Source of the DNA: Oceanobacillus senegalensis
GTDB taxonomy: Bacteria > Bacillota > Bacilli > Bacillales > Amphibacillaceae
Length of the DNA stretch: 64,000 bases
Reading direction: 5' to 3'
Assembly (NCBI RefSeq): GCF_900176885.1
Contig: NZ_LT839648.1
Span: 1,984,174 to 2,048,173, forward strand
This document shows positions 19,785 to 53,839 of this stretch, piece by piece. Numbering within the stretch: position 1 is the stretch's first letter; the number at the start of each line of letters is the position of its first letter. The translations under genes and the position numbers were made by a program. The notes below the pieces were generated by a model. It had not been told where the DNA came from, ran no database searches, and worked only from the letters and a program-made list of their open reading frames with translations.

Positions 19785-20507
19785 ATGCAAACAAGTTTAT
19801 TATTAAAAACGCGCACACAGGATAAAATTATCTCCTCAGAACTTAGAGCATTAATGGACTCAATAGGTACCGTTAAAACAATGGATAAGGATTCTTATTT
19901 GTTTCACGAAGGAACAGATGCCCATGAAATATATATAATTAAGTCAGGATTAGTACAGGTCTCCAAATTAACGACAGACGGTAAGGAAATGATCCTTAGG
20001 ATTTGTAAAGATAAAGATATAATTGGTGAATTAACCCTATTTAGTAATAATCCAAAATATTTACTAAGCTCTAAAGTTCTAGAGTCTGGAGAAGTATTGG
20101 TTATTGAAAAAGATTTATTAGAAAAAACATTAATAACGAATAATTTTCTTACATTTGAATTTATGAAATGGACCAGTAATCATATGCGTAAATTCCAAAC
20201 GAAGATTAGAGATTTAATGCTGAATGGAAAAAAAGGTGCTCTATATTCCACGCTTATCCGCTTATCAAACAGCTATGGTATTAAACAGAATGATGGAATA
20301 CTAATAGACCTCGTTTTAACGAATCAAGAACTAGCCAAATTCTTTGCAGCTTCAAGGGAAAGCGTTAATCGAATGCTGGTTGAACTTAGAAGATTAGGTG
20401 TTATAAAAATGGATAAGTCCGGAAGAATTAAAATCCTGAACATGGACTATTTACGTCAAGAAATCGGATGTGAAAACTGCCCTATTGAAGTATGTAATAT
20501 AAATTAG
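19785..20507 (+). CDS. fnr: Anaerobic regulator Fnr (C-terminal 4Fe-4S type)
   Basis: A 240-residue Crp/Fnr regulator: cyclic-nucleotide-like beta barrel (residues ~30-120), dimer helix, and a winged HTH with LTNQELAKFFAASRESVNRMLVEL. The C-terminus has Cys229, Cys232 and Cys237 (C-x2-C-x4-C), the Bacillus-type Fe-S ligands rather than the N-terminal ones of E. coli FNR. B. subtilis Fnr binds TGTGA-N6-TCACA and activates nar genes without oxygen. Five matching boxes in this window fit that role. GGAGGG precedes the ATG. It sits within the Moco genes. Confidence 0.95.
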   Translation: MQTSLLLKTRTQDKIISSELRALMDSIGTVKTMDKDSYLFHEGTDAHEIYIIKSGLVQVSKLTTDGKEMILRICKDKDIIGELTLFSNNPKYLLSSKVLESGEVLVIEKDLLEKTLITNNFLTFEFMKWTSNHMRKFQTKIRDLMLNGKKGALYSTLIRLSNSYGIKQNDGILIDLVLTNQELAKFFAASRESVNRMLVELRRLGVIKMDKSGRIKILNMDYLRQEIGCENCPIEVCNIN

Positions 20508-30348: not shown

Positions 30349-33300
30349 ACCAATCTACCTCCTTCATTTTTCGAATAACTACATTTAAATCCCGTTGGTT
30401 ACCAGTTGGACCATAATAGTTAAACCCATAACTTAATTGCGCATATCCACCAATCATATGGGTGGGTTTTACATGGATCTTGGTAGGACTATTATGTGTA
30501 CCTCCACGATTCTTCGTTAGCTTCGTTCCTGGTGTATGAATATGACGATCCTGGGCGTGGTGCATAAATGCCATTGTTCTCGGTATACGGTGAGAAACAA
30601 CCGCCCTCGCTACTACAACCCCATTTCGGTTAAAGCATTCTATCCAATCATTATCTTCTACATCAATATCAGCTGCATCTTCTTTATTCAGCCACACGGT
30701 TGGACCACCACGGAATAGATTTAACATTGGCTGTGAATCGAAATACATACTATGGACGGACCATTTATTATGAGGTGTCAGATAATTTAATGTTATTTCT
30801 TTTCCTTCTTTATCCGGACGATTGGAACGAAATGGTTTATCATTCAAGATTGGTTTAAATATAGCAAATGATTCACCAAATTCCTTCATCATCTCGTGAT
30901 CAAGAAAGTATGATTGTCTACCTGTAATCGTCCTAAATGGAATCATTCTTTCAATATTGGTTGTAAATGGAGAATACCTTCTTCCACCTTTTTCCGAACC
31001 ACTAAATGCTGGTGACGTGATGACAGTTTTTGGTTGGGCAGTGATATTATCAAATGTAAATAACTCTTCTTCCCTTTCCGTAGCCAAATCTTTTAACTCA
31101 AGATTTGTCTGTTTCTCTAGTGCCTCCCATGCTCTTACAGCAACTTTTCCATTTGTTGTGGAAGAAAGCATTAATACTGCATCACAAGCATCTCTTGCAC
31201 TCGAAATATCTGGACAACCATCTGTAATCGTTCCATTTTGTACGGTACCAAATGTACGTTTGGCCTGTTCATATTCTTTTTCCATATTCCAGTTAATCCC
31301 TTTTGTTCCATAAGGCCCCTTCGCAATGTTTGGTCCGAGTGCTGTCATTTTATTGTAAATTTGCTTAAAATCACGCTCTACAACATGGATTTGTGGCATA
31401 GTTTTCCCTGGAATAGGTTCACATTCCCCTTTTGACCAGTCTCTTATCTCACCAAAGGCCTGAGACATTTCTGCTGTTGTATCATGATTTAATGGGGTTG
31501 CAACAATTTCTTTAATTGTATCCATATCAAGTTCTTCTGCTAAATCGGATACGCCCTTTGCAACAGCTTTAAAAATATCCCAATCTGATTTAGCTTCCCA
31601 GGGTGACGTGATTGCTGGATTAAATGGATGTACAAATGGATGCATATCCGTACTTGATAAATCATACTTTTCATACCATGTTGATGCAGGCAAAATTACA
31701 TCAGAGTATAGTGCTGTACCCGCCATCCTAAAATCAAGATTGATAAGGAGATCGACTTTTCCTTCCGGTGCTTCTTCTCGCCACTCTATTTCTTTTGGAC
31801 GAATACTGTCTTCATCCGAATTAAGGAGTCCATGTGATGCACCTAATAAATGTTTAAGGAAATACTCGTGTCCTTTTCCAGAACTGGAAATTAAGTTTGC
31901 TCTCCAAACAAATAAATTTCTAGGGAAGTTAACTGGATTGTCAGGATCTTCAATAGCAAATTGTAGTTTCTTCTCTTTTAGTTGTTTTGCAACATAATTT
32001 CCAATTTCTTCTGTTGTTTCATTGCCTGCTTCAATAGCCTCGTTATATAAATCAATTCCATTTTTAGTAAACGTTGGGTAAGATGGTAGCCATCCTAATC
32101 GTGCTGCTAATACGTTATAATCACCTGGATGATCATATCTTGCTTTTTCTACTGTAGCACTGGCAAGTTCCGATAATGGAGTTTCTTCATAACGCCACTG
32201 GTCTGTTGCAAAATAGAAAAAGGAAGTACCGTTTTGGAATTTCGCAGGACCTCCCCAGTCCTTAGCTGATTGAATCGTAGCCCAACCTTCTGCAGGTCGA
32301 AGTTTTTCTTGTCCTACATAGTGGGCCCAGCCACCACCATTAACACCTTGTGCACCAACCATAAGGATTAGATTTACAACTGCACGATAAATGGTGTCTG
32401 AGTTATACCAATGGTTAATTCCAGCTCCCATAATAATCATGGAGCGCCCCTTCGTATCGATAGCATTTTGAGCAAATTCACGGGCAATTTTAATAACTAA
32501 ATGACGATCCACCCCAGTTATTTCCTCTTGCCATGCTGGGGAAAATGGTGCGATTTCATCATAGGAACTTGCAGCCTCACCGCCTAGTCCACGATCAATG
32601 CCATAGTTAGCAAGCATTAAATCATAGACTGTTGCAACATATTCGGTTTTGCCGTCTACCTCAACCTTTTTAACCGGAACGGCACGTTTTAATACTTTTT
32701 TCTCCCTAGCATCGAAGTATGGCATATCGACATGTACTACTTCATCTTCCATACCTAGAAAACTTAATATTGGCTCAATGTTTTCATTGGTATTTTCATC
32801 AATCAGTTTTAGATTCCATTTTCCTTTTTTGTCCCAGCGTGAACCCATGGTACCTTGTGGAATAGAAAATCCCTCCGTACGTTTGTTATACATAGCTGGT
32901 TTCCATTCATTATTATCTATATCCATACCTAAGTCCTTCGCATGGAAGAATCGATCTGCTATAAACTTGCCATTCTCTTTTTTCAAAAGAACGGAGAATG
33001 GGAAATCCGTATATTGTTTTGCATAGTCCTCAAAATAAGGTGTGTTGTTTTTATCGTAAAATTCATTTAATATAACATGGCCCATTGCCATTGCTAAAGC
33101 ACCATCTGTCCCTTGTCTAACAGATAACCAGTCATCAGCAAATTTTGTTGATTCTGCATAATCCGGGCTCACAGAAACTACTTTGGTCCCTTTGTACCTT
33201 GCCTCAACTAGAAAGTGAGCATCAGGTGTGCGTGTCATTGGTACATTGGAACCCCAGGTCATGATATAGCCGGAGTTAAACCAGTCAGAGCTTTCTGGTA

Positions 33301-34021
33301 CATCTGTTTGATCCCCCCAAATTTGTGGAGAAGCTGGTGGTAAGTCAGCATACCAATCGTAAAAACTGAGCAATTGTCCACCCATTAAATGTAAAAAGCG
33401 ACTACCAGCTGCGTAACTAATCATCGACATTGCTGGAATTGGAGAAAATCCAACATTACGATCCGGTCCATATTTCAAAGTAGTGTATAGTGTGGATGCT
33501 GCCACAAGCTTAGTCACTTCTTCCCAATCAGCTCGAACCAGCCCGCCTTTACCTCTTGCTTGTTTATAAAAAGCTGCTTTTTCCTTATCCTCTACAATAC
33601 TTTTCCATGCCTCTAATGGATTATCATAGACTTCAAGCGCTTCTTTCCACATATTCAGTAACCTTTTACGAACGTATGGATATTTCACACGTAAAGGACT
33701 GTATATATACCAAGAGAAACTTGCACCCCTTGGACATCCACGTGGTTCAAACTCCGGCATATCAGGTCCAGTAGTAGGATAATCTAATGCTTGCCCTTCC
33801 CATGTGACAATTCCATCTTTTACGTATATATTCCAGCTGCATGAACCCGTACAGTTTACACCATGTGTAGATCGGATTACCTTGTCATGCTGCCATCTTC
33901 TTCGATATACATTCTCCCAATCACGATTACCCTCTTGTAATTGGCTATGATTATTTGAATATGTTTCTTTCGGCTTCAAGTAATTCATTCGTTGCCATAG
34001 TGGAGATGATTTCTTTTTCAT
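30338..34021 (-). CDS. narG: Nitrate reductase alpha subunit (operon 1)
   Basis: A 1227-residue Mo-bisMGD enzyme. The FS0 cluster ligands are His53, Cys57, Cys61 (STHGVNCTGSCSW) and Cys96. The segment WGDQTDVPESSDW around residue 240 holds the family's Mo-ligand Asp. SNVPMTRTPDAHF follows. No Tat signal is evident, so it faces the cytoplasm as in other NarG. GGAGGG lies before the ATG. A perfect FNR box is 71-86 bases upstream. First gene of narGHJI-1. Confidence 0.97.
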   Translation of the reverse strand: MKKKSSPLWQRMNYLKPKETYSNNHSQLQEGNRDWENVYRRRWQHDKVIRSTHGVNCTGSCSWNIYVKDGIVTWEGQALDYPTTGPDMPEFEPRGCPRGASFSWYIYSPLRVKYPYVRKRLLNMWKEALEVYDNPLEAWKSIVEDKEKAAFYKQARGKGGLVRADWEEVTKLVAASTLYTTLKYGPDRNVGFSPIPAMSMISYAAGSRFLHLMGGQLLSFYDWYADLPPASPQIWGDQTDVPESSDWFNSGYIMTWGSNVPMTRTPDAHFLVEARYKGTKVVSVSPDYAESTKFADDWLSVRQGTDGALAMAMGHVILNEFYDKNNTPYFEDYAKQYTDFPFSVLLKKENGKFIADRFFHAKDLGMDIDNNEWKPAMYNKRTEGFSIPQGTMGSRWDKKGKWNLKLIDENTNENIEPILSFLGMEDEVVHVDMPYFDAREKKVLKRAVPVKKVEVDGKTEYVATVYDLMLANYGIDRGLGGEAASSYDEIAPFSPAWQEEITGVDRHLVIKIAREFAQNAIDTKGRSMIIMGAGINHWYNSDTIYRAVVNLILMVGAQGVNGGGWAHYVGQEKLRPAEGWATIQSAKDWGGPAKFQNGTSFFYFATDQWRYEETPLSELASATVEKARYDHPGDYNVLAARLGWLPSYPTFTKNGIDLYNEAIEAGNETTEEIGNYVAKQLKEKKLQFAIEDPDNPVNFPRNLFVWRANLISSSGKGHEYFLKHLLGASHGLLNSDEDSIRPKEIEWREEAPEGKVDLLINLDFRMAGTALYSDVILPASTWYEKYDLSSTDMHPFVHPFNPAITSPWEAKSDWDIFKAVAKGVSDLAEELDMDTIKEIVATPLNHDTTAEMSQAFGEIRDWSKGECEPIPGKTMPQIHVVERDFKQIYNKMTALGPNIAKGPYGTKGINWNMEKEYEQAKRTFGTVQNGTITDGCPDISSARDACDAVLMLSSTTNGKVAVRAWEALEKQTNLELKDLATEREEELFTFDNITAQPKTVITSPAFSGSEKGGRRYSPFTTNIERMIPFRTITGRQSYFLDHEMMKEFGESFAIFKPILNDKPFRSNRPDKEGKEITLNYLTPHNKWSVHSMYFDSQPMLNLFRGGPTVWLNKEDAADIDVEDNDWIECFNRNGVVVARAVVSHRIPRTMAFMHHAQDRHIHTPGTKLTKNRGGTHNSPTKIHVKPTHMIGGYAQLSYGFNYYGPTGNQRDLNVVIRKMKEVDWFED

Positions 34022-37311: not shown

Positions 37312-38816
37312 AGTTTGTCTCTCACTTTCATCATTCCGAATGTTGGGTTCATCCCTTCCGGTGGTGCTAAATCCTCAAGACTACATGAACCTTGTTTATA
37401 ATGTAAATCATCATCCATTTCCCTGCGTCCAGTTGGAATCACATACCGTTCATCATATTTTGCAATTCCTAATAATCTTGCCATTTCTTCAATTTCCTCG
37501 GGACTCGTATTTGCCTGTTTGACTAATTCACTTTGTTTAAATTCATCAATACCACCAACTGTTTTTCCACGCATATATACTCTCATTGCCGATAATTTTA
37601 ACAGTACCTTGCGAATCACCTCTGTATCATCTGCAGATAAAATGGAAGCCAGGTATTCCATAGGGATACGCATTTGATCAACAGCTGGAATGTATCCATC
37701 TGTATTTAATTCATCCTCATTTGTAATGTGATTCATGATTGGGCTAAGTGGCGGTACATACCAAACCATAGGCATGGTCCGATACTCAGGATGTAACGGT
37801 AATGCAATTTTCCATTTCATTGCCATTTTATAAACTGGGGACTCCTTCGCCGCTTCTAACCAAGCATCCGTAATCCCAGCTTCTCTTGCTTTTTCTTGGA
37901 CAACTTCATCAAATGGATCAAGAAAACAATCAAGTTGTGCCTCGTATAAATCCTGTGGATCTTCAACAGATGCAGCTGCCTTAACTTTATCCGCATCATA
38001 TAATACAACACCGATATAACGTATTCGTCCAACACAAGTTTCCGAGCAAATTGTTGGAAGTCCAGCTTCTGTCCTTGGATAGCAGAAGTTACACTTTTCC
38101 GCCTTATGGGTATTCCAGTTATAGTATACCTTATGATAAGGGCAACCATTCTGGCAAAATCTCCACCCACGACATGCATCATGGTCAACTAGGACAATTC
38201 CATCCTCATCACGCTTATATAATGCACCTGTAGGACAAGAAGCTACACAAGATGGATTTAGGCAATGTTCACAAATACGTGGCAAATACATCATAAATGT
38301 TTTTTCATATTCTGTTTTTATATGATCTTGCATTTTTTCCACGTTAGGATCACGCGCAACATTTTCACTACCGCCTGCTAAATCATCATCCCAATTTGAC
38401 CCCCATTCCGGTTTATCCATATACTTCCCAGTTATTTGGGATACTGGTCTTGCAACAGGGAGGTTATCACTTTTCGGACTGTGAATTAAATGATCATAAT
38501 CATGGGTCCATGGCTCATAAAAGTCTTCCATCTCAGCCATGTTCGGATTATAGAAAATATTAGCAAGCTTTGATATAGGGCCTCCAGCACGTAGCTTTAA
38601 TTTTCCATTTCTTAATTCCCAACCTCCCTTATAACGCTCTGTATCCTCCCATCGTTTTGGATATCCTACACCTGGACGAGTTTCTACATTATTAAACCAC
38701 ATGTATTCCGTGCCAGGGCGATTAGTCCACGTGTTTTTACACGTAACCGAACATGTATGACAACCAATACATTTATCTAAGTGCATGACCATTGCTACCT
38801 GTGCTTTAATCCTCAA
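37308..38816 (-). CDS. narH: Nitrate reductase beta subunit (operon 2)
   Basis: A 502-residue NarH with the same cluster ligands as the first copy: CIGCHTCSVTCKN, CEHCLNPSCVASCPTGA, CRGWRFCQNGCPYHK and CNFC. The TTG start overlaps the narG-2 stop in exactly the same arrangement as in operon 1 (GGAGGTAGATTGG before TTG). This conserved junction supports duplication or shared ancestry of the two operons. Confidence 0.97.
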   Translation of the reverse strand: MRIKAQVAMVMHLDKCIGCHTCSVTCKNTWTNRPGTEYMWFNNVETRPGVGYPKRWEDTERYKGGWELRNGKLKLRAGGPISKLANIFYNPNMAEMEDFYEPWTHDYDHLIHSPKSDNLPVARPVSQITGKYMDKPEWGSNWDDDLAGGSENVARDPNVEKMQDHIKTEYEKTFMMYLPRICEHCLNPSCVASCPTGALYKRDEDGIVLVDHDACRGWRFCQNGCPYHKVYYNWNTHKAEKCNFCYPRTEAGLPTICSETCVGRIRYIGVVLYDADKVKAAASVEDPQDLYEAQLDCFLDPFDEVVQEKAREAGITDAWLEAAKESPVYKMAMKWKIALPLHPEYRTMPMVWYVPPLSPIMNHITNEDELNTDGYIPAVDQMRIPMEYLASILSADDTEVIRKVLLKLSAMRVYMRGKTVGGIDEFKQSELVKQANTSPEEIEEMARLLGIAKYDERYVIPTGRREMDDDLHYKQGSCSLEDLAPPEGMNPTFGMMKVRDKL

Positions 38817-41800
38817 GCCAATCTACCTCCTCAAGTCGTCTTACAACAGCCATTGTGTCGCGTTGATGTCCAGTTGGACCGTAATAGTTAAATCCATAAC
38901 TTAATTGCGAATACCCGCCAATCATATGGGTTGGTTTTAAGGTTATTCTTGTCACACTATTATGTGTACCACCACGTTTTTTCGTAACAGTAGTTCCAGG
39001 TACACCCATCGTACGATCTTGGGCGTGATACATATAAACCATACCCCTAGGGATTCGATAAGTAATTACAGCCCTTGCAGCAATCGCTCCATTACGGTTA
39101 TACACTTCAATAAAGTCATTATCTTTTATCCCAATAGAAGCTGCATCTTCTTCATTCATCCAAACAACCTGCCATCCTCTAAACAGAGTGGTCATTTGAT
39201 TGGTTTCCGTAAACATCGTATGAATGCCCCATTTTTGATGTGGGGTTAAATACCTTACAGTAAGTGATTCTCCATTATCTTTTACACCCTTCTCATTCTT
39301 CATGAAAGGACCTTTTTGAAGCGGTGGCAAGTACAATGGTAATCCTTCACCAAAATCTAGCATCATTTCGTGATCGAGATAAAAACTCTGTCTCCCCGTC
39401 AGTGTATGCCATGGAAGTTTATATTCCTTATTAACTGTAAATGGAGAATATCTTCTTCCACCCTTTTCCATTCCGCTCCACATTGGGGTCGAAATAGATG
39501 TACGCGGTTGAACCGTTATGGATTGTAATGTATGATCCTCTTCTTCTCTTTCCTTGGCAATGTCCGTTAGCTTCTGACCAGTTTTCTTCTCAAGGGACTT
39601 CCACCCTTCTACGGCACGTTTTCCATTTGTGGCACCGGAAGATAATAGAATGGCATTAATAGCTTTCTTATCTGTTAAAAGATCAGGATTACCTTTACCA
39701 ATTCCTTCCCTTTTCGACACACCAAGTCGATCTTTTAACTCTTCATAAACTTTTTCACCTGGAATTCTTACCCCTTTACCACCATAGCCATTCTTTAATT
39801 CTGGTCCAATTGTGGTCATTTTTTGATACGTGTTTGGAAAGTCTCTTGTCACAACATTCAAGTTAGGCATCGTTTTACCTGGGATAGGTTCAACTTCTCC
39901 ATTCCGCCAATCCTTAATCTTTCCATAAGCTTGAGCTATTTCACCTGGAGAATCATGACCTAGTGGACGCATAAGCAATTCTTCTTGCGCAGGTAAATGC
40001 TCTCTAGCTAGTTCCGAAAACACTTCAGCGATTTCACGAAATGAATCCCAATCACTTTTTGCCTGCCATGGTGGTGAAATAGCTGCATTAAACGGGTGAA
40101 TAAATGGATGCATATCCGTACTGCTAATATCAAATTTCTCATACCAAGTAGCAGCAGGAAGAACAATGTCTGAGAATAATCCAGAACTAGTCATCCGGAA
40201 ATCAATGCTGATAAATAGATCGGTTTTCCCTTCTGGAGCCACCTTAGAAACATTAACTGCCTCTGGTTGCCAAGAACTATCAGTATCTGTTAGAACAGCA
40301 TGATCTCCACCAATTAAATGCTTCGCAAAGTATTCATGTCCTTTCCCACTATCCCCTAACAAATTGGATCTCCAGTTGAAGAAAACTCGTGGGAAATTTC
40401 TAGGATCATCAGGATTTTCAATGGCCCAATCAATATCTCCAGACTTGATTTGCTTCACTACATGGTCAATTATTTCCTTTTCATCTTTTGCACCTTGTTC
40501 TTTTGCTTCTTTTACTATATCAATCGAATTCTGGGTGAACTGTGGAAAAGATGGAAGCCACCCTAGCCTAGCTGAAAGGGCATTCACATCTGCTGGATGC
40601 ATGTTATTGTACTTACTACTCCATGTGGTATTTTCTTTATTATTCTCTGTTTCATATCGGAACTGTTCTGTTGCAAAATAGAAAAAAGATGTACCATTCT
40701 GTAGTCTTGGTGCATTTCCCCAGTCACCAGCGAAAGCAACCATATTCCAACCTTCTACAGGTCGTACTTTTTCCTGCCCAACATAGTGAGCCCAGCCACC
40801 TCCATTTACACCTTGGGAACCTGTTAACATGATTAGATTTAAAATAGATCGATAAATTTGATCACTATGGTACCAATGGTTTGTTCCACCACCCATAGCA
40901 ATCATGGATTTTCCTTCTGTCCGTTCCGCATTGTCAGCGAATTCCTTCGCTATTTGAATAACATGGTTCTTATTTACACCAGTAATACTTTCTTGCCATG
41001 CTGGTGTATAAGGTTTTTCATCATGATAGTCTTTGGGATAATCACCTGGCAGATTTCGATCAACCCCAACATGGGCCATCATTAAATCATAAATGGTCGT
41101 TACCTTGAGCTTGTTCCCTTTTGTGTCTTGAACATTTTTGACTGGTACACCTCGCGTAACCGTACCACCTTCTGCTTCCGCAAAATACGGGAACGTAACT
41201 TGGGTCACTTCATCCGTATCTTTAATAAAACTTAATTTTGGATCAATCTCAGAACCATCTGCCCTTTTCAAATCAAGATTCCATTTATTGTCATCATCCC
41301 AGCGGAATCCCTGACTACCATTAGGGATTTCCATTTGATTTGTCTGTTCATCCCAAACAACAGTTTTCCATTCACCGAGCTTTTGTGAATCATTAATATC
41401 GGCAGATCTGAGGAATCGGTCGGTGCGATATTCTTCCCCATGTTCACGTAAAATGACAAGGAAAGGTAAATCAGTAAAACGTTTAACATAATCAATAAAA
41501 TAGGGGGTTTGCTTTTTAACATAGAATTCCTTCAATATGACATGTGTCATCGCCATTGCAAGAGCTCCATCTGTCCCTGCCCTTGCTGGAAGCCAAACAT
41601 CAGCAAATTTCTCATATTCGGCATAGTCAGGACTTACACCGACAACTTTTGTGCCATTGTAGCGTGCTTCTACCATAAAATGTGCATCTGGTGTACGAGT
41701 CTGAGGTAAATTGGTTCCCCAAATAATGAAGTACTTTGTGTTGTACCAATCTGCACTTTCGGGTACATCCGTTTGATCTCCCCATACTTGTGGTGAAGCC

Positions 41801-42486
41801 GGTGGAAGATCTGCATACCAATCATAAAAGCTTAGAAGTGTTCCTCCTATTAAAGATAGAAAGCGACCACCAGCAGCATAGCTTACCATAGACATTGCTG
41901 GAATCGGACTAAATCCGACGACACGATCCGGACCATATTTTTTAATGGTGTAAATAATGGAGCTTGCAATAATTTCACAAACTTCTTTCCAATCCGTCCG
42001 TACAAAACCACCTTTACCTCGTGATTTTACAATTTTATTTCGTTTTCCATGGTCACTTTGAATGTTTTCCCAAGCTTTAACAGGGTCATGCCCCTGTTCT
42101 TTTTCTTTCTTCCAAAGCTCATATAAATTACTACGAATATATGGATATTTCACTCTTGCAGGACTGTATGTATACCAAGAAAAACTCGCACCTCTTGGAC
42201 AACCACGAGGTTCGTATTCTGGAAAATCATCCCCTGTTGAAGGGTAATCCGTTTGCTGGGTTTCAGATGTAATAATCCCATCCTTCACATAAATCTTCCA
42301 GCTACATGAACCAGTACAGTTAACACCATGTGTGGAACGAACAATCTTATCATGTGCCCATCTACGTCGATAAAGTTCTTCAGAATCTCTAGGACGTGGA
42401 CTCTCTTCTGTCCATCCTTCATTAATTGTCTTCCCGCGTCTTAGGTACTTAAATGAGTCAAGCAATTTATTACTTTTCTTCGCCAC
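38806..42486 (-). CDS. narG: Nitrate reductase alpha subunit (operon 2)
   Basis: A 1226-residue NarG. FS0 ligands His53, Cys57, Cys61 and Cys96 occupy the same numbers as in the first copy. The Mo-ligand region WGDQTDVPESADW is intact, followed by TNLPQTRTPDAHF. The start is GTG, with GGGGGAT seven bases upstream inside the preceding small gene (17-base overlap). Unlike operon 1, three non-nar genes precede narG in this operon and no FNR box was found in its promoter region. Confidence 0.97.
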   Translation of the reverse strand: MAKKSNKLLDSFKYLRRGKTINEGWTEESPRPRDSEELYRRRWAHDKIVRSTHGVNCTGSCSWKIYVKDGIITSETQQTDYPSTGDDFPEYEPRGCPRGASFSWYTYSPARVKYPYIRSNLYELWKKEKEQGHDPVKAWENIQSDHGKRNKIVKSRGKGGFVRTDWKEVCEIIASSIIYTIKKYGPDRVVGFSPIPAMSMVSYAAGGRFLSLIGGTLLSFYDWYADLPPASPQVWGDQTDVPESADWYNTKYFIIWGTNLPQTRTPDAHFMVEARYNGTKVVGVSPDYAEYEKFADVWLPARAGTDGALAMAMTHVILKEFYVKKQTPYFIDYVKRFTDLPFLVILREHGEEYRTDRFLRSADINDSQKLGEWKTVVWDEQTNQMEIPNGSQGFRWDDDNKWNLDLKRADGSEIDPKLSFIKDTDEVTQVTFPYFAEAEGGTVTRGVPVKNVQDTKGNKLKVTTIYDLMMAHVGVDRNLPGDYPKDYHDEKPYTPAWQESITGVNKNHVIQIAKEFADNAERTEGKSMIAMGGGTNHWYHSDQIYRSILNLIMLTGSQGVNGGGWAHYVGQEKVRPVEGWNMVAFAGDWGNAPRLQNGTSFFYFATEQFRYETENNKENTTWSSKYNNMHPADVNALSARLGWLPSFPQFTQNSIDIVKEAKEQGAKDEKEIIDHVVKQIKSGDIDWAIENPDDPRNFPRVFFNWRSNLLGDSGKGHEYFAKHLIGGDHAVLTDTDSSWQPEAVNVSKVAPEGKTDLFISIDFRMTSSGLFSDIVLPAATWYEKFDISSTDMHPFIHPFNAAISPPWQAKSDWDSFREIAEVFSELAREHLPAQEELLMRPLGHDSPGEIAQAYGKIKDWRNGEVEPIPGKTMPNLNVVTRDFPNTYQKMTTIGPELKNGYGGKGVRIPGEKVYEELKDRLGVSKREGIGKGNPDLLTDKKAINAILLSSGATNGKRAVEGWKSLEKKTGQKLTDIAKEREEEDHTLQSITVQPRTSISTPMWSGMEKGGRRYSPFTVNKEYKLPWHTLTGRQSFYLDHEMMLDFGEGLPLYLPPLQKGPFMKNEKGVKDNGESLTVRYLTPHQKWGIHTMFTETNQMTTLFRGWQVVWMNEEDAASIGIKDNDFIEVYNRNGAIAARAVITYRIPRGMVYMYHAQDRTMGVPGTTVTKKRGGTHNSVTRITLKPTHMIGGYSQLSYGFNYYGPTGHQRDTMAVVRRLEEVDWLED

Positions 42487-43128: not shown

Positions 43129-43560
43129 TCAATAATGGGGTAAAATTCTCTCCTCCTCTATATTATGAAATTCATCAACATGAACGAGGGCTTGAAGTTT
43201 TTCCAATACCTCTTTGCTGAAACCTTCTTTTTCTAACAATTGTTTAATCTCTTTTACTAAAAAACGTAAAATATTATGGTCTCTTGTTAATGCAATCACA
43301 TCATCTTTTAATTTTGGGGATTTCTTGACTAATTCCTTATATAAACCATTTTCTTCTGCATCCGCATGTCTTAATGTCCGTGTTTCCCAATGTTCCACAG
43401 CAATATAAGCGATTTCCAGTGCCTTATCCATCTGATTATCTTCGGTTAACTTCGCAAGGATATCATTAATTTCCCTTGCTTCATTCAATGCAGCTTCATG
43501 GATTGCAGAATGACTATCTACATACTTTAAACCTGGCCCCGATGCACCTTGATTTGGCAT
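43129..43560 (-). CDS. Hemerythrin-like HHE domain protein, first gene of the nar-2 operon
   Basis: A 143-residue four-helix protein with the histidine and acid pattern of HHE/hemerythrin domains: DSHSAIHEAALNEAREI, EHWETRTLRHADAEENGLY, TRDHNILRFLVKEI and HVDEFHNIEEERILPHY. Such proteins bind a di-iron centre and sense or buffer O2 or NO. The frame starts at 43581, but AAAGGAGGG fits the ATG at 43560. Leading a nitrate reductase operon, it may link expression or protection of the enzyme to NO or O2; that is inference. Confidence 0.82.
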   Translation of the reverse strand: MPNQGASGPGLKYVDSHSAIHEAALNEAREINDILAKLTEDNQMDKALEIAYIAVEHWETRTLRHADAEENGLYKELVKKSPKLKDDVIALTRDHNILRFLVKEIKQLLEKEGFSKEVLEKLQALVHVDEFHNIEEERILPHY

Positions 43561-43597
43561 AAAATTTTCCCTCCTTTTCATAGGTAGTCCGTTACCT

Positions 43598-45179: not shown

Positions 45180-45590
45180 TTATTGAACCATTAAAGTAGC
45201 TATCATTTCTTCATGACCTTCGCCACAGAATATATTGCAATATATTTCATATTCACCTGGGTCCTCCGGCACAATTACTGCTTCTCCATCACTTTCTATG
45301 ATAACTCCAAGTTCATCAATAGAAATTCCATGATTTCCCTCTTCATTAGTAAGAGTAATAGTAACCTCTTCCCCAGATTGAACTACATACGCTTCTTGAT
45401 TAAAATCAAAATTTGTAGCAACTATATTTACTTCATTACTGACTGCTGTTGATTCTTCTGATGAATTAACTTCCTTCGTTTGCTCGGAATTATTTTCTTT
45501 ATTATTATCCCGTGTTTCTGTAGTAGTATTATCATTACCACCACAAGCAGCTAAAGCTAATAAAAGACTAAATAAAATAATTTTTTTCAT
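45180..45590 (-). CDS. Lipoprotein with CuA-type cupredoxin domain
   Basis: A 136-residue protein: lipobox LALAAC (Cys16), a ~35-residue Asn/Thr/Glu-rich linker, then a cupredoxin. It has a complete CuA ligand set: His87 (EEGNHGIS), Cys118, Cys122, His126 and Met129 (YCNIFCGEGHEEM). No membrane anchor other than the lipid is present. CuA domains of this type occur in oxidase subunit II, N2O reductase and CuA-NOR; a free-standing one is unusual and may be an electron carrier or copper donor. An FNR box lies ~90 bases upstream. Confidence 0.82.
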   Translation of the reverse strand: MKKIILFSLLLALAACGGNDNTTTETRDNNKENNSEQTKEVNSSEESTAVSNEVNIVATNFDFNQEAYVVQSGEEVTITLTNEEGNHGISIDELGVIIESDGEAVIVPEDPGEYEIYCNIFCGEGHEEMIATLMVQ

Positions 45591-45679: not shown

Positions 45680-45695
45680 TGTGATTTTACTCACT
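45680..45695 (-). promoter_or_regulatory. FNR box upstream of the cupredoxin gene
   Basis: TGTGA-TTTTAC-TCACT. Its centre is ~97 bases before the cupredoxin start, leaving room for a promoter and a ~55-base leader. It also faces the divergent operon starting at 46109, which has its own box. Confidence 0.75.
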
Positions 45696-46035: not shown

Positions 46036-46051
46036 TGTGATTTAAGTCACT
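46036..46051 (+). promoter_or_regulatory. FNR box upstream of the DUF2249/12-TM operon
   Basis: TGTGA-TTTAAG-TCACT, centred ~65 bases before the ATG at 46109. The distance to a -10 at about 46072-46078 fits class II activation. Confidence 0.8.
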
Positions 46052-46077: not shown

Positions 46078-46108
46078 TAAAGGTATTAAATATATCTGGA
46101 GGGATTAG

Positions 46109-46366
46109 ATGAATAAAAAAGAAATAGTCGAACTGGATGTGCGTGAAGATCTTAAATTAAAGCGTGAGCCCTTTGACAAAATCATGGGTACTGTTAAGAG
46201 CTTAAAGGAAGGCCAAGCATTTGTATTACATGCTCCGTTTAACCCTGTTCCATTACACAAAGTATTAGGTAGAAAAGGATTCGAACATGAAGCCGAAAAA
46301 GTAGAAAAGAAACATTGGAAAGTTACGTATACAAAGACAGGGAGGATAAAAGATGAAAATTATTGA
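46109..46366 (+). CDS. DUF2249 domain protein
   Basis: An 85-residue DUF2249 protein: ELDVREDLKLKREPFDKIMG, LKEGQAFVLHAPFNPVPLHK, HWKVTYTKTG. The HAPFNPVPLH turn corresponds to the H-D-P-x-P-L turn of the DUF2249 protein at 44909. GGAGGGATT precedes the ATG. It is the first gene of a four-gene operon whose frames overlap or nearly touch, under both an FNR and a Fur-type box. Confidence 0.8.
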   Translation: MNKKEIVELDVREDLKLKREPFDKIMGTVKSLKEGQAFVLHAPFNPVPLHKVLGRKGFEHEAEKVEKKHWKVTYTKTGRIKDENY

Positions 46367-46571
46367 TAACCGTGGGTTACAGCCACCTCAACCAATGATG
46401 AGAACATTAAAAACCCTTGAAAAAATGAAACCAGGGGAAACCCTGGCCATCATTAATGATCGTCGACCGATGTTTTTATATGAAGAACTAAATGAACTTG
46501 GTTATCAACATGAAACGGAGCCACAGGAAGATGGTAGCTTTAAGATAACGATTACAAAGTCTGGTGAGTAA
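46353..46571 (+). CDS. DUF2249 domain protein (second in tandem)
   Basis: A 72-residue DUF2249 protein: DNRGLQPPQPMMRTLKTLEK, GETLAIINDRRPMFLYEEL, FKITITKSGE. Its start overlaps the end of the first DUF2249 gene by 14 bases, with GGGAGGAT as SD. The two tandem proteins differ clearly in sequence, so a heteromer is possible. Function of the family is unknown. Confidence 0.8.
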   Translation: MKIIDNRGLQPPQPMMRTLKTLEKMKPGETLAIINDRRPMFLYEELNELGYQHETEPQEDGSFKITITKSGE

Positions 46572-46572
46572 C

Positions 46573-47811
46573 ATGATTCAAACTGACATAAAAAACGATA
46601 CATCCATTAAACTTCCATTAGCATTTATTTTATTTGCACTTTTCGCCTTTGTGATAGCTCAAGGGATTCTTTTATTTAATAGTACCCAGTTATTAACAGG
46701 GCAATTTCGAATTCCAGAAATATGGATGAGTGCCCATTTTCTACTACTAGGTTTTGCCGTTATGGTTGCAATGGGGGCCATGTATCAACTAGTTCCCGTT
46801 ACTTTTTTAACTCCAATATGGAACCCATTTTTTGGGATTATTCAATTTATCGTTACATCTGTAGGAATAAGCTCATTATCTATTCTTCTAGGTATAAAAC
46901 CAAACTACGCTATTTATGGAGGCGTGCTTGCGGTTCTTGGTATCATCATGTTTGTCATACAAATGATAATGACATTACGAAGCCAAAAGGAAAAAAGCAT
47001 ATTATCTAAGTTTATTGGTACAGCAATAATCTGCTTCTTTCTTACCATTGTTGCTGGACTTTTATTAGCTGGAAATATAGCGTTTGGCGGAGTCAACTAT
47101 TATTATACAATTCTTAAATCGCATATTGTTCTCGGTATTGGCGGATGGTTCACCTTATTAATCTTTGGATTTTCTTATAAACTCATCCCCATGTTTAGCC
47201 TTTCCCATGGTTTTTCAATGAAATGGGCAAAGTCTTCCTTTGTAACTTATATAGGTGGAATCATCATTGTTTTATTCTCTTTTTGGACAAATACTCTTTT
47301 ACTGGGTATGACTGGATGGTTGTTTTTATTTATTGGGTTTACCCTTTTCATTCTTGATATAAAAGAAATACTAAGGAAACGAATAAAGAAAAAACTTGAC
47401 AAGTCCTTTAGCTTCTCTCTTTTTGCTATATTAATTGGGTGGATCACCCATATTCTTGCCATTCCACTAAGTTTATTTCAACTGTCTAATCTATGGGGAT
47501 GGCTAATCTACCTGTATATAATGGGATGGATTATATTCAGTATTTTAGGGTACCTTTATAAAATTGTTCCATTCCTATGGTGGACACATAAATACTCAGA
47601 AAGAATAGGTAAAGAAAAAGTTCCAACCATGAAGGATATGATGAGCGAGAAACTTGGAAGTATATTATTTTGCTTATTTACTATTGGTGTGATTGGAAGC
47701 ATTTTTAGTGCTTTATTTCATTTTAACCATGGTTTTGTTATTACCCAAGGTGTATTAACTGCAACTTCAATAGGTTATTGTTTTTCGATTATTCGAGTAT
47801 TATATCATTAA
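46573..47811 (+). CDS. Twelve-helix membrane protein, heme-copper/NnrS-like by pattern
   Basis: A 412-residue protein with about 12 membrane helices. Histidines occur in or near helices (SAHFLLLGF, LKSHIVLGIGGWF, ITHILAI, WWTHKYS, FHFNHGFV). A phrase of the type Y-[KQ]-[LI]-[VI]-P repeats three times (AMYQLVPV, FSYKLIPM, YLYKIVPF), as in subunit I-like proteins and NnrS. I infer heme or copper binding and a role in NO or nitrite chemistry, but cannot prove family. A GTG nine bases upstream is in frame; GGTGA favours the ATG at 46573, right after the DUF2249 stop. Confidence 0.65.
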   Translation: MIQTDIKNDTSIKLPLAFILFALFAFVIAQGILLFNSTQLLTGQFRIPEIWMSAHFLLLGFAVMVAMGAMYQLVPVTFLTPIWNPFFGIIQFIVTSVGISSLSILLGIKPNYAIYGGVLAVLGIIMFVIQMIMTLRSQKEKSILSKFIGTAIICFFLTIVAGLLLAGNIAFGGVNYYYTILKSHIVLGIGGWFTLLIFGFSYKLIPMFSLSHGFSMKWAKSSFVTYIGGIIIVLFSFWTNTLLLGMTGWLFLFIGFTLFILDIKEILRKRIKKKLDKSFSFSLFAILIGWITHILAIPLSLFQLSNLWGWLIYLYIMGWIIFSILGYLYKIVPFLWWTHKYSERIGKEKVPTMKDMMSEKLGSILFCLFTIGVIGSIFSALFHFNHGFVITQGVLTATSIGYCFSIIRVLYH

Positions 47812-47828
47812 TAGGAGGTTACTACGAA

Positions 47829-48128
47829 ATGTCTATGAAATTAATGGTGCAAGAGGCCTTGCATGAAGTAATTGATCCTGAATTAGGCGTTAACATTGTC
47901 GATTTAGGGCTTGTATATAAAATTGAAGTGGATAACAATAATAACATTACCATAACGATGACTTTAACCACTCCAGGTTGTCCAATGCATGATAGTATAG
48001 CAAATGGGGTAAAGCATCGACTAGGATTAATTGATAAAATTGGAAATATCCAAGTAGATATCGTATGGGAGCCGGCATGGAGCCCGGACAAAATGAGTAA
48101 TCGTGCAAAGGAAATGTTATGGAGCTAA
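47829..48128 (+). CDS. DUF59/MIP18-family metal-sulfur cluster assembly protein
   Basis: A 99-residue DUF59 protein: EALHEVIDPELGVNIVDLGL, TMTLTTPGCPMHDSIANGV (with the conserved Cys), VDIVWEPAWSPDKMSNRAKE. This is the PaaD/SufT-like fold that helps Fe-S cluster maturation. AGGAGGTT fits the ATG at 47829; the longer frame would start inside the 12-TM gene. As last gene of the DUF2249/12-TM operon it may mature a metal site in a partner of that operon. Confidence 0.85.
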   Translation: MSMKLMVQEALHEVIDPELGVNIVDLGLVYKIEVDNNNNITITMTLTTPGCPMHDSIANGVKHRLGLIDKIGNIQVDIVWEPAWSPDKMSNRAKEMLWS

Positions 48129-48275: not shown

Positions 48276-48342
48276 ATCCCTAGTCCGGTATTCATGATAA
48301 CATGTATAATGGACTAAATACGGTGTGGAAAGGATGACACTT

Positions 48343-49035
48343 ATGTATCCGGAATCGGTTAAGAAATTATTGCAACGTTTTCCTTTGTTTAAAAGTTTAA
48401 CAGACTTTGAAATAGATCCAATTGTTAGCCTAGCTAAAAATCGAACCTATCGTCAAGGAACACATATTTTTATGCAAGGCGATCCTTTGACAAATGTTTA
48501 TTTTATTCATTCTGGTAAGGTGAAAATTTACAGAACTGACTTTCAAGGGAAAGAGCAAATTATTAATGTGCTAAATAATGGAGAAATGTTTCCCCATCAA
48601 GGATTTTTCCGCAATGATGACTACCCAGCACATGCACAGGTTCTTGAAGATGCCGTATTAATATATATACCTATCCATTTGTTTGAGGACTTCCTAATCA
48701 ATAATCCGGAAGTAAGTATTAAAATTTTCCGTGTTTTAGGAGATAAAATTGTTGACTTACAAAATCGATTAGAGGAAAAAATTCTACGTAATACGTATGA
48801 GCAAATTATATTACTTTTAATCCGCTTGAGTAAAAAACATGGAAATATAGATGCTAATGAAAAAATTACGTTAACAACGCATTTTACAAACAGAGAATTG
48901 GCAAATATGATTGGCTCCAGTCGAGAGACCATTAGTAGAACGTTAACTCGGTTAAAGAAAAAGGAATTGGTTATGACAGGTCGTGATGGTAATATGATAC
49001 TTGATACCAAAGGATTAAAGGAAGAATTGTTTTAA
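48343..49035 (+). CDS. Crp/Fnr-family regulator without cysteines
   Basis: A 230-residue regulator: effector barrel (FPLFKSLTDFEIDPIVSLAK, QGDPLTNVYFIHSGKVKIY, residues ~8-120), dimer helix, and HTH FTNRELANMIGSSRETISRTLTRL. It has no Cys at all, so it cannot hold an Fe-S cluster like the Fnr at 19785. The recognition helix R-E-T-I-S-R is like that of E. coli FNR and DNR/NnrR proteins. It may sense heme-NO, redox or a ligand; this is inference. Upstream GTG and ATG codons are in frame, but AAAGG best serves the ATG at 48343. Confidence 0.85.
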   Translation: MYPESVKKLLQRFPLFKSLTDFEIDPIVSLAKNRTYRQGTHIFMQGDPLTNVYFIHSGKVKIYRTDFQGKEQIINVLNNGEMFPHQGFFRNDDYPAHAQVLEDAVLIYIPIHLFEDFLINNPEVSIKIFRVLGDKIVDLQNRLEEKILRNTYEQIILLLIRLSKKHGNIDANEKITLTTHFTNRELANMIGSSRETISRTLTRLKKKELVMTGRDGNMILDTKGLKEELF

Positions 49036-49920: not shown

Positions 49921-50484
49921 TTACTCCATTTCATAGTCCTCGGGGTGGATAAAAAGACTTTGAATGAAATAAATCATGATACATAAACCTGTTAATAAAA
50001 AGGTCCATCCTAAAGCTTTCTGCTCAGTAACTAGATAATTATTACAGAGCTGGACTGGGGATGCAATATATAACCAGCCTAACACAATGGATAATAGGCT
50101 TAAAATGACAAACACTGTATTTTTTCCAAATTTCGTTAATTTCCCCCAACTATCGCGTAAAGGAATACCTGCCAAAAATGGTAAACTAATAAACTTAAAA
50201 AGCTCAACGGCCGGAATGGTTAAAGCTTCATCCATCGTACGTGGAATCATCCAATAAATAACAATAATCATAAATAGCATAATTCCTGGTAATCCGTTTT
50301 GATTCCAATTCACAAAAAATCCGGGGAATTTTTGCTTGAGGTATGGCGTAAAGAGCATACCAGCTATAACTAATAAAGGCATCTGCATATGCATATGAAC
50401 AACCATGATGGATTCTGACATCGTAACAACTGGTGGGAGCATCATAAATAAATATAGTACAAATCCATATTTAGCTTGTTTCAT
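49921..50484 (-). CDS. Five-helix membrane protein linked to the ba3-like operon
   Basis: A 187-residue protein with five membrane helices. A His/Met cluster in the first third (SIMVVHMHMQMPLLVIAGML) could bind copper. Its ATG overlaps the stop of the SCO gene by one base (TAATG), so both are made together. I do not recognise a named family; a copper-delivery or assembly role for the heme-copper enzyme is inferred from position and the HMHMQM motif. Confidence 0.7.
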   Translation of the reverse strand: MKQAKYGFVLYLFMMLPPVVTMSESIMVVHMHMQMPLLVIAGMLFTPYLKQKFPGFFVNWNQNGLPGIMLFMIIVIYWMIPRTMDEALTIPAVELFKFISLPFLAGIPLRDSWGKLTKFGKNTVFVILSLLSIVLGWLYIASPVQLCNNYLVTEQKALGWTFLLTGLCIMIYFIQSLFIHPEDYEME

Positions 50485-51116
50485 TATATGTCACCAGCCT
50501 TTGAGTCGAGAATAGAAATAACTCGATTTGCAGCTTGATCAATTTCCTGATAATCCATTACATCTACTAATACTCCTTCTGGATTTACTAAATAAAAAGC
50601 AGAATTATGGGTGAAATTTCCATTATTATCTGGAATAACGATTACACCAAATTCATCCAATAACTGGTCCAACTCTTTTTGGTCTGGAATTCTAGCCATT
50701 CGCCATGTCTCCCCATCCGCATTAAAATAATATCGATATTTTTCTAATGTCGCTGGGTCATCGTTTTCTGGATCAAAGCTAATACTTAAGAAAATAATGT
50801 CCTCCCCAATATACTCTTTGGGAACCTGATTATATACTTGTGCAAGATTCATCTCTAATTCCGGACAAACGTCGGTACATGCTGTATAAATAAAGGTTAA
50901 CATAACGTATTTTCCCTCAAATTCTGAAAAAGGGTAAACCCGTTCCTTACTATCCTCTAATGTAACTTCCGGAAATGTTGGTGATTCTTCCATAAGCTTC
51001 ATTGTTCTCGCTGTTTCTGCCGTAAAGGCCCGAAATCCATCTGTACCAATAAAGAATAGCACTATGCCAAACGTGATAACAATGATTAATGATACTGTAT
51101 TTTTATTCCTGATCAT
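50484..51116 (-). CDS. SCO1/SenC-type copper chaperone
   Basis: A 210-residue protein with an N-terminal membrane anchor (residues ~8-24) and a thioredoxin-like domain. The copper-binding motif C80-x3-C84 (YTACTDVCPELEMN) and the distal His in NGNFTHNSAFYLV are present. SCO proteins load the CuA site of subunit II. It lies downstream of the subunit I gene in the same direction, separated by a hairpin that may lower its expression. Confidence 0.92.
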   Translation of the reverse strand: MIRNKNTVSLIIVITFGIVLFFIGTDGFRAFTAETARTMKLMEESPTFPEVTLEDSKERVYPFSEFEGKYVMLTFIYTACTDVCPELEMNLAQVYNQVPKEYIGEDIIFLSISFDPENDDPATLEKYRYYFNADGETWRMARIPDQKELDQLLDEFGVIVIPDNNGNFTHNSAFYLVNPEGVLVDVMDYQEIDQAANRVISILDSKAGDI

Positions 51117-51243: not shown

Positions 51244-52917
51244 CTACCATGTTCTAAATGGTGGTGATCCTGGGACATTGATTATTTCTGTTAGTGGTAC
51301 GACATAGCCCATTGCTACTGTTAGCAGTAATAGAACGATAATAAGTCCCCATCTTTCTGTCCATTTAGGTGTAGGTTGTGCATTTAATTCAGGTGCTGCA
51401 ATTGGAAATTCTGTATGTCCTCTCGGTGCTAGGAACATGAGATAGAATACGATATATACCATGAGTAACACACCGATAATTAAGAATGTTCCTCCGATTG
51501 CTAAGAAAATTAATAATGGATCCCAGCTTAATGCTGTTGCACTATCACCATAAGTTGTAAAAGATGTTCTTCTTGGTGAACCTAGAAGTCCCACAAAATG
51601 CATTGAGCCAGACATAAATATCATACCAATCGTCCAGAAAGCAGTTTGTACTAGACCAATTTTATTGATTTGTGGGGTAAATTGACGTTTTGACAAATGA
51701 GGGATTAACCAGTAAGCAATCCCAAAGAATGTTAATGCTACTGTAACTCCAAGCGTTAGGTGGAAGTGTCCAACAATCCACAGTGAATTATGAACCACTT
51801 GGTTTAATTGGTTATTTGTCTGTGCAATTCCACCTGCCCCAGCAGGGATGAATGCTACCATGGCAATGAATGGTGCTAGGAAACGAACATCTCCCCATGG
51901 TAATTTCTTAAACCAACCTAATAATCCTTTTCCACCTTTTCTTCTGCCCGCACGTTCAAATACTGCAAACATGGCAAATGCAGTCATCATAGATGGGAAA
52001 CCAATAGCTAGACTCATGAACACATGGATGTATTTCCAACCTTCTGTTATACCTGGGTCAATGATTTGGTGGTGGAATCCACCAGGAATATTTAGAATAA
52101 CTAGTAGGATGACAACCAATCGTGTTAATGCATCACTAAATAATTTTCCGCCGATAATTTTTGGTACAGCAACGTACCATGCAGAAATGGCAGTTAAATA
52201 CCAAATATTTACGAGTGTATGACCGAAACTCCAGAATAACGTACGACTTAACATTACATTTATAGTTTCTGTCCATCCAAAAGCCCAAGGAATTAACATT
52301 AATACCTCAACCGTTACCCCAATACTTCCAAATACCAGCATTACGAATACTCCGGTCGCAAAGAAAGCTAACAACGGTATATGCTGACCTTTATGATTTT
52401 TTCTCCAGTTAGCAACATTGATAAACGCTCCGAATGCTGCAATCCAAATTCCAACTACTAAAAATACCAAACCAATATAGAACCACGGTGATGCTTGCAT
52501 TGGTGGGTAGAATGTATACATAACTGAAGCATTACCTAAGATAACCTGAGTAGCTACAAAGACTACACCAACAACCATGGAGAAGAATGCTATCCAACCC
52601 ATCTTTCTTACCTTAGGAAGAAGTCCACCTAATGTATGAGAAAGTGAAGCATAGAAATATCCAACAGTAAATGTTGTCGTAAATACTAAAACTAGTAAAA
52701 TACCATGTGTTGTCAGTGTTTGATAGTAATCAAACCATGATGGTAATTCCATCAGCCCTGCACGATTTAAACCTTGAAATAGTCCTAAAAATCCGCCAAT
52801 TAATAATGCTATAAATGAAACCGTAAAATAGGTTAATGATAATCGTGCATCCTGAGGGTTTACACCTAACGCTTTTTCAACCTTATCATTAAATGGTATT
52901 TTCTCAGCTAAATCCAT
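51244..52917 (-). CDS. ba3-like heme-copper subunit I with Tyr-to-Asn change, candidate CuA nitric oxide reductase
   Basis: A 557-residue B-type heme-copper subunit with about 13 helices. All six His ligands are seen: His71, His384, His386 (hemes) and His233, His282, His283 (CuB); from memory they fall on, or within one of, T. thermophilus ba3 numbers. The oxidase Tyr at position 237 is Asn here: W-S-F-G-H-T-L-V-N-I-W, codon AAT at 52207-52209. Tyr248, Ser309 and Thr312 of the K path are kept; position 244 is Ile. Loss of the cross-linked Tyr is a mark of NO reductases such as CuA-NOR of B. azotoformans. NO reduction is inference; usual annotation would be ba3 oxidase. AGGAGGG precedes the ATG. 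Confidence 0.85.
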   Translation of the reverse strand: MDLAEKIPFNDKVEKALGVNPQDARLSLTYFTVSFIALLIGGFLGLFQGLNRAGLMELPSWFDYYQTLTTHGILLVLVFTTTFTVGYFYASLSHTLGGLLPKVRKMGWIAFFSMVVGVVFVATQVILGNASVMYTFYPPMQASPWFYIGLVFLVVGIWIAAFGAFINVANWRKNHKGQHIPLLAFFATGVFVMLVFGSIGVTVEVLMLIPWAFGWTETINVMLSRTLFWSFGHTLVNIWYLTAISAWYVAVPKIIGGKLFSDALTRLVVILLVILNIPGGFHHQIIDPGITEGWKYIHVFMSLAIGFPSMMTAFAMFAVFERAGRRKGGKGLLGWFKKLPWGDVRFLAPFIAMVAFIPAGAGGIAQTNNQLNQVVHNSLWIVGHFHLTLGVTVALTFFGIAYWLIPHLSKRQFTPQINKIGLVQTAFWTIGMIFMSGSMHFVGLLGSPRRTSFTTYGDSATALSWDPLLIFLAIGGTFLIIGVLLMVYIVFYLMFLAPRGHTEFPIAAPELNAQPTPKWTERWGLIIVLLLLTVAMGYVVPLTEIINVPGSPPFRTW

Positions 52918-52931
52918 TTAATTTCCCTCCT

Positions 52932-53399
52932 TTATTTCACAGTAATGGTGGTAGCCATCACTTGGTGCCCTGCACCACAGTATTCATTACAGATAACTAA
53001 ATATTCTCCAGGCTCATCAAATGTCTGTGAAATTCGTTGTACATGTCCTGGTGTTACCATTGCATTTATGTTTGTACCAGGAACTTGAAAACCATGGACG
53101 ACATCTTTAGAAGTCATCGTAAAATGAACCTCAGATCCTACAGGTATTTCAATTTCATTTGGAGTAAAACTAAAGGCTTGAAGTGTCATAACGACCTCAT
53201 ATTCATTTTCTCCTACTTCAAAAACTCCTGGATTATCAAACGGTGCAGTTTCATCTACTTTCTGTGGGTCAATTGTTTCCATTCCACTTGGCGGTGCCAT
53301 CCCGTGAGCAAATGCTTGATAACCAGTAACAGCCATGGATAATACAATGATGGCAACACCAAAAATTAACCAAATCTCTTCGGCACGATGCATTTTCAT
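52932..53399 (-). CDS. Subunit II with intact CuA site
   Basis: A 155-residue protein: one N-terminal membrane helix (~8-27) and a CuA cupredoxin domain. Ligands His102 (DVVHGFQV), Cys137, Cys141, His145 and Met148 (ICNEYCGAGHQVM) are complete. It takes electrons from a c-type cytochrome and passes them to subunit I. AAGGAGGG precedes the ATG; 14 bases separate it from the subunit I gene. CbaB of ba3 oxidases and the CuA subunit of CuA-NOR have the same plan, so this gene does not by itself tell them apart. Confidence 0.93.
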   Translation of the reverse strand: MKMHRAEEIWLIFGVAIIVLSMAVTGYQAFAHGMAPPSGMETIDPQKVDETAPFDNPGVFEVGENEYEVVMTLQAFSFTPNEIEIPVGSEVHFTMTSKDVVHGFQVPGTNINAMVTPGHVQRISQTFDEPGEYLVICNEYCGAGHQVMATTITVK

Positions 53400-53412
53400 A
53401 ATAAAACCCTCC

Positions 53413-53565
53413 TTAAATTCTAATCATATAAAGTACAAGAAGTAACAAAATACAAGCGACAATCGTTCCTCCAACAAAAACGACAGAAGAAAATAATGCT
53501 CCCTTTAGAGAATGTTCTTCCTCATTGACATTTTTTTCTGAGATAATGCCTTTATTTGATTCCAT
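53413..53565 (-). CDS. Subunit IIa (small single-helix subunit of B-type heme-copper enzymes)
   Basis: A 50-residue protein: charged N-terminal half (MESNKGIISEKNVNEEEHSL) and one C-terminal helix (ALFSSVVFVGGTIVACILLL). This is the CoxIIa/COX2A layout of ba3-type enzymes, and it is found directly before subunit II. GGGAGGG precedes the ATG at 53565. First gene of the operon. Confidence 0.85.
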   Translation of the reverse strand: MESNKGIISEKNVNEEEHSLKGALFSSVVFVGGTIVACILLLLVLYMIRI

Positions 53566-53623
53566 TCCTAACCCTCCCTTGTATCTTTCATACTTTTATT
53601 TTAGTGGATATAAAAATAAATTA

Positions 53624-53639
53624 AGTGAACCAAATCACA
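53624..53639 (-). promoter_or_regulatory. FNR-like box upstream of the ba3-like operon
   Basis: AGTGA-ACCAAA-TCACA, one base from the TGTGA-N6-TCACA dyad. Its centre is ~66 bases before the subunit IIa start. An oxygen reductase would not normally need anaerobic activation by Fnr. Confidence 0.65.
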
Positions 53640-53839
53640 CCGGGAATGTGATTTTTAGCACATATTAGTATTTTCTTGACAACTTTTTGAACAACTCAAA
53701 AATGGAAGATGTCCTTACAAGTTATGAATGCGACATCCTATCACAATACCTGTACTAGCCGTCGTGGACATGGCCGTTCTTACTTACGTGTAAAATAACA
53801 CTAAAAGTCTATAATTCCTTACATGTACCAAAAAAGAAA

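Follow-up and report, generated by a model that had tools for sequence, protein, structure and literature searches.

A probable type I CuA nitric oxide reductase operon in Oceanobacillus senegalensis

A minus-strand operon of ba3-like heme-copper genes in Oceanobacillus senegalensis was analyzed. It lies in a window of 64,000 nucleotides of contig NZ_LT839648.1 (the whole stretch of DNA under study; all coordinates are window positions unless a contig is given). Open reading frames (ORFs) and profile searches give the order cbaC-cbaB-cbaA-senC-cbaD, i.e. the same cluster as that of the CuA nitric oxide (NO) reductase of type I. Orthology, this operon order, an asparagine in the active site (Asn237), a CuA site and FNR-type boxes argue that the operon encodes such an enzyme (type I CuA-NOR, also qCuANOR or bNOR) of the B family of heme-copper enzymes; judging from sequence, we put the probability at about 0.92. 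The same evidence supports an earlier note on this DNA, which had proposed a probable CuA NO reductase; the span given there, 51244-53639, omits senC (50484-51116) and cbaD (49921-50484), though its text counts both. The enzyme family is already described, and the operon is a sound identification rather than a discovery. The available portion of PMC3475470 (2012) describes the operon and the Tyr-to-Asn change for the Bacillus azotoformans CuA-NOR and for B. bataviensis, and PMC11388526 names the enzyme bNOR.

The catalytic subunit I, CbaA (51244-52917, minus strand, 557 aa), matches the PF00115 profile with 265.8 bits, and its best matches are ba3 enzymes. All six ligand histidines are present (H71, H233, H282, H283, H384 and H386). 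The motif around the first metal-B ligand reads G-H233-T-L-V-N237, with codon AAT at 52207-52209, so that a His-Asn pair replaces the metal-B His-Tyr pair with its spacing of four residues, which marks the B-family O2 reductases. QoxB of the same window (6476-8425, plus strand) reads G-H-P-E-V-Y. The earlier note had reported the six histidines, the Asn codon at the position of the cross-linking Tyr and the normal H-P-E-V-Y of qoxB, and all three are confirmed. The predicted structure (mean predicted local distance difference test score, pLDDT, 78.1, with several loops below 50) has the ba3 fold, which fits NO and O2 reductases equally.

The residue at position 237 was then read in the loci fetched after a CbaA search over 147 genomes of the same family. 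Matches were found in 82 of these genomes (127 in total). They fall into two groups by identity: 55 reach at least 63%, and the other 72 do not exceed 53%. Residue 237 is Asn in all 55 close relatives (54 fetched loci and the window) and Tyr in all 72 oxidase-like ones, among them the genome's own ba3-type oxidase; within the sample of 147 genomes, 55 have a gene of the Asn type. The 28 named loci have Asn in 26 cases and Tyr in two Paenibacillus proteins (49-53% identity). Chance, error or a pseudogene as the origin of Asn237 is ruled out, since the frame is open and Asn recurs in each of the 54 other close relatives within the family, as well as in 26 of the 28 named loci.

Other residues follow the same division. 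In an alignment of 155 rows, which includes the window, Thermus ba3 and a type II paralogue and omits L027 and L196 (short frames, both Tyr), the six ligand histidines are invariant. Seven positions separate the 81 type I Asn rows from the 73 Tyr rows without exception: F186/M, N237/Y, Y240/L, N276/S, G279/V, M301/L and S302/T. Ser245 is present in 81/81 type I Asn rows and in no Tyr row, Tyr244 in 73/73 Tyr rows and in no type I Asn row, and Y248 and T312 are conserved in all rows of both types. Some named loci seem to duplicate unnamed ones (L003/L100, L014/L122 and L018/L095 have equal values), and near-duplicates are therefore included in the 80-, 81- and 155-row counts; the 147-genome counts are free of them. 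Asn237 together with Phe186, Tyr240, Ser245, Asn276, Gly279, Met301 and Ser302 thus forms a simple marker distinguishing NO reductases from oxidases in this family. In the segment 52187-52209, which covers residues 237, 240 and 244, Tyr237 and Tyr244 are missing from the Asn-type proteins and Tyr240 is new (81/81), so that the tyrosines of the metal-B helix appear displaced by about one turn. This shift from 237/244 to 240 offers a concrete entry to the question of how proton delivery for NO reduction works in a ba3-like protein.

Trees of 60, 59 and 58 rows, chosen to span the groups out of the 157 gathered, place CbaA with the B. bataviensis CuA-NOR, away from the Tyr-type relatives and Thermus ba3, which answers the alignment check proposed in the earlier note. 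These are quick trees whose support values are those of the Shimodaira-Hasegawa-like approximate likelihood ratio test (SH-aLRT) only. A single branch with support 100 separates Asn from Tyr rows, and it persists when all trait columns are removed. Thermus ba3 and the type II row sit on very long branches, with a long-branch warning, and their attachment points are uncertain. If the type II row serves as outgroup, two changes of the Asn label are needed, or one if only Asn and Tyr rows are counted; with that row excluded a single change is needed, at support 100. The anchor is the B. bataviensis locus L005, 69% identical to the window protein in subunit I, which we equate with BABA_00225 (contig02 46749-45070, against 46749-45067 in a table of the available part of PMC3475470). 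B. bataviensis was used because a degenerate pattern for the N-terminus of subunit II, meant to retrieve the B. azotoformans gene BAZO_06399, had no hit in 398 genomes of the class.

A B-family O2 reductase that retains O2 activity despite the loss of the cross-linking Tyr, possibly with Tyr240, gained in this group, as a substitute, was considered and judged very improbable from the grouping and the linked residues. The Asn-type rows share their side of a branch with the CuA-NOR already published, Tyr244 is gone as well in 81/81 Asn rows, and the genome holds other Tyr-bearing oxidases. Besides CbaA and QoxB, its COX1-family matches comprise C4:1901071, C4:1384880 (the ba3-type oxidase L124, H-P-L-V-Y) and, at C4:2865283, a type II gene; a 415-aa protein encoded in the window also matches, weakly. 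The type II gene belongs to a second Asn-type operon (L125/L033; G000:C4:2865283-2866608, minus strand); it encodes 490 aa with H-I-F-A-N and has its own CuA subunit, senC and cbaD.

The other genes of the operon agree with a type I CuA-NOR. Subunit II, CbaB (52932-53399, minus strand, PF00116), carries the complete CuA motif, H102 and C137-N-E-Y-C141-G-A-G-H145-Q-V-M148 (C137-x3-C141-x3-H145-x2-M148), in accordance with the full site claimed earlier. It matches COX2/cupredoxin profiles only, i.e. it is a CuA subunit without heme c, and its closest solved structure is subunit II of Thermus ba3. The small membrane peptide CbaC (53413-53565, minus strand), probably subunit IIa, is a 50-aa ORF at the position of cbaC in the available part of PMC3475470; Pfam and NCBIfam scans gave no match for it, and a cbaC-like ORF is present in 28 loci. 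On the other side of cbaA, senC (50484-51116, minus strand) encodes a SCO1-type copper insertion protein (PF02630, 68.9 bits, C-x3-C at residue 80) and adjoins 53 of the 54 Asn-type loci of the family; a SCO-like ORF is also found near 11/72 Tyr-type loci, at 21-28% identity. The last gene, cbaD (49921-50484, minus strand), encodes a membrane protein with no match in a Pfam scan; it adjoins 52/54 Asn-type loci and 0/72 Tyr-type loci, and six membrane helices are predicted for its B. azotoformans homologue in the accessible text of PMC3475470. Three loci (L016, L020 and L117, two of them in Sporosarcina) form a variant Asn type with H-T-F-V-N, and no senC or cbaD of the operon's kind was found adjoining them.

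The expectation that the enzyme would be misannotated as an oxidase was borne out: NCBIfam gives oxidase models only, far below their cut-offs, and Pfam gives COX1 only. Such misannotation is already described (PMC11388526 and the available text of PMC3475470). The N-terminal cytochrome-c-like domain of NorB (PF22085), taken as the mark of qNOR and cNOR, had no match in the whole genome. Since the standard libraries hold no name for the enzyme, annotation overlooks a capacity for N2O production, a point also made in PMC11388526.

The control region was compared with the FNR-type consensus. Upstream of the operon there are two FNR-like boxes, where the earlier note had correctly seen a box and counted a single one: a proximal box (53624-53639) and, 23 bp from it, a distal box (53647-53662), each with one mismatch to TGTGA-N6-TCACA. 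The Bacillus FNR protein reads a box of the TGTGA-N6-TCACA type, and its cluster is ligated by cysteines in the C-terminal part. A regulator with such cysteines and an HTH_Crp_2 match, encoded at 19785-20507 (plus strand), is a candidate reader of the boxes. The window holds nine sites within one mismatch of the consensus, where 2.28 would be expected; in 100 shuffles the number always stayed below nine. The nine include sites before narG (34092) and before a gene for a CuA lipoprotein (45680), besides the operon's pair. Among 78 distinct Asn-type upstream regions (type II row L125 included, window excluded) 61 have a box no more than 350 nt away from subunit II, with 0.9 expected; a looser rule, applied without Tyr-type control, gives 71/78. 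The proximal box is kept upstream of relatives, with the consensus TGTGATttagTTCACT, and two boxes 22-23 bp apart occur in 27/77 distinct upstream regions. Near the operon, at 48325-49035 (plus strand), lies another regulator of the CRP/FNR family, without cysteine, whose relatives are present in 15 fetched loci.

The metabolic setting bears on the role of the enzyme. Two different narG-type alpha subunits are encoded in the window, at 30338-34021 and 38806-42486 (minus strand; TIGR01580, 2108.9 and 1743.6 bits, both above the cut-off), and the genome has a c551-type cytochrome gene, over the cut-off, as a possible electron donor. Profile searches of this genome, rated 99.99% complete, found no match for NirK, NirS, NrfA or the qNOR N-terminal domain, and only matches below cut-off for NosZ and NirB. 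No recognised NO-forming nitrite reductase was thus found by profile search, a search that did not extend to NapA, Hmp, NorV or the hybrid-cluster protein. Some points weigh against the assignment as an NO reductase. The supply of NO lacks a recognised enzyme, as NirK and NirS were not found; the orthology passes through B. bataviensis, whose NO reductase role is itself a sequence inference in the available part of PMC3475470; and FNR-like boxes are not exclusive to the Asn type, being present in 13/72 Tyr-type regions (0.79 expected).

Because NirK, NirS, NrfA and qNOR are absent from the matches and NosZ is below cut-off, full denitrification appears unlikely, and NO removal beside nitrate respiration likelier. 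A full denitrification chain that uses a nitrite reductase outside the types covered by the search would agree with the nitrate reductases of the window and the two NOR-like operons of the genome; it is improbable in view of these same searches of an almost complete genome. Without NirK or NirS, NO would have to arise in a side reaction when nitrite is reduced, be made by an enzyme that the search did not cover or come from outside. The claim that the operon reduces NO during nitrate respiration is therefore upheld in part, by the two narG genes and the Cys-bearing FNR gene in the window, and weakened by the lack of a NirK or NirS match in the genome.

To the residues, operon, orthology and conserved boxes observed here we add, by analogy with the B. 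azotoformans enzyme, NO as the presumed substrate, cytochrome c551 and menaquinol as possible donors, and electrogenicity. Electrons would enter at the CuA of subunit II and pass through the low-spin heme (H71/H386) to the high-spin heme (H384) and metal B (H233, H282, H283), where 2 NO would be converted to N2O; this assignment of histidines to metals is one that we take from the ba3 oxidase. Asn237 would substitute for the Tyr needed for O2 reduction. Protons would probably come from the cytoplasm through an analogue of the K-pathway (Y248, S309 and T312 are kept), and this would make the reaction electrogenic. SenC would serve in copper loading, and when oxygen is lacking FNR would activate both nar and this operon. 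Since no NirK or NirS was found, we infer that the role here is the energy-conserving removal of NO arising beside nitrate-to-nitrite respiration rather than a step of a full denitrification chain.

A true NO reductase that is chiefly detoxifying, induced by NO stress and of minor weight in energy conservation, is a possibility that we do not favour but take seriously: the genome has no NirK or NirS match, and the Cys-less CRP/FNR relative (48325-49035) and a hemerythrin-like protein (43129-43581) are encoded nearby. On the other hand the FNR-type boxes are common to the operon and the nar region, which points to oxygen lack as the signal, and the B. azotoformans enzyme is reported in the available text of PMC5826923 to be electrogenic.

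The least expected item is a stand-alone CuA lipoprotein of 136 aa (45180-45590, minus strand), with a lipobox and the motif C-N-I-F-C-G-E-G-H-E-E-M, preceded by the FNR-like box at 45680-45695. It resembles the CuA domains of ba3 subunit II and NosZ, and its CuA motif is conserved in 20/20 fetched matches, the window's own included. Relatives lie near 15/54 Asn-type operons and 0/70 Tyr-type ones (flanks of 3.5 kb and 2 kb respectively, contigs permitting; 13 of the 15 linked cases are within 2 kb). They are distributed as follows: six behind cbaD on the same strand, seven divergently upstream and two about 2.7 kb upstream. Across 100 genomes the lipoprotein is present in 22/37 with the Asn-type gene and in 19/63 without it (Fisher p 0.006; hand-made lists, rows below 40% identity dropped); it is associated with that gene, not exclusive to it. 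Linkage, motif, lipobox and box make it a candidate partner of the operon. Rather doubtfully, we suggest that it may serve this NO reductase specifically, as electron carrier (or copper donor), in a CuA-to-CuA relay replacing or adding to cytochrome c551. A literature search for such a protein turned up only PMC3475470, whose available text names cytochromes c as donors and describes cupredoxins as seemingly absent in B. azotoformans.

Also in this neighbourhood, at about 46107-48128 (plus strand) behind an FNR-like box at 46036, are two short ORFs, the 415-aa membrane protein, whose COX1 match is weak and partial (40.9 bits), and a PF01883 iron-sulfur assembly protein. The two short ORFs presumably encode DUF2249 proteins. 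The findings overturn nothing known; their value lies in the setting of the operon, the signature residues and the stand-alone lipoprotein.

Compared with known systems, Thermus ba3 (1EHK) and the oxidase L124 share with CbaA and its operon the fold, the six histidines, a CuA subunit II, Y248 and T312; they differ by Tyr237, Tyr244 and Leu240, with 35% and 48% identity to the window protein, and cbaD is missing beside the Tyr-type loci throughout (72/72). The type II CuA-NOR, or sNOR-like enzyme (BAZO_04705; L125), has Asn in the same column, a CuA subunit II and adjoining senC and cbaD; L125 is only 22% identical to CbaA and lacks Tyr240, Ser245, Asn276 and Gly279. We would guess that the sNOR of PMC11388526 and the type II of PMC3475470 are one family. 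According to the available descriptions, B. azotoformans has two qNOR genes and NirK, unlike this genome, in which qNOR, NirK and NirS were not found by profile search, and ctaB adjoins the B. bataviensis cluster and is not seen among the ORFs listed around the operon here. With the type I qCuANOR/bNOR of these two species, as far as described there, the operon shares the order cbaC-cbaB-cbaA-senC-cbaD, Asn in place of Tyr and a CuA subunit II.
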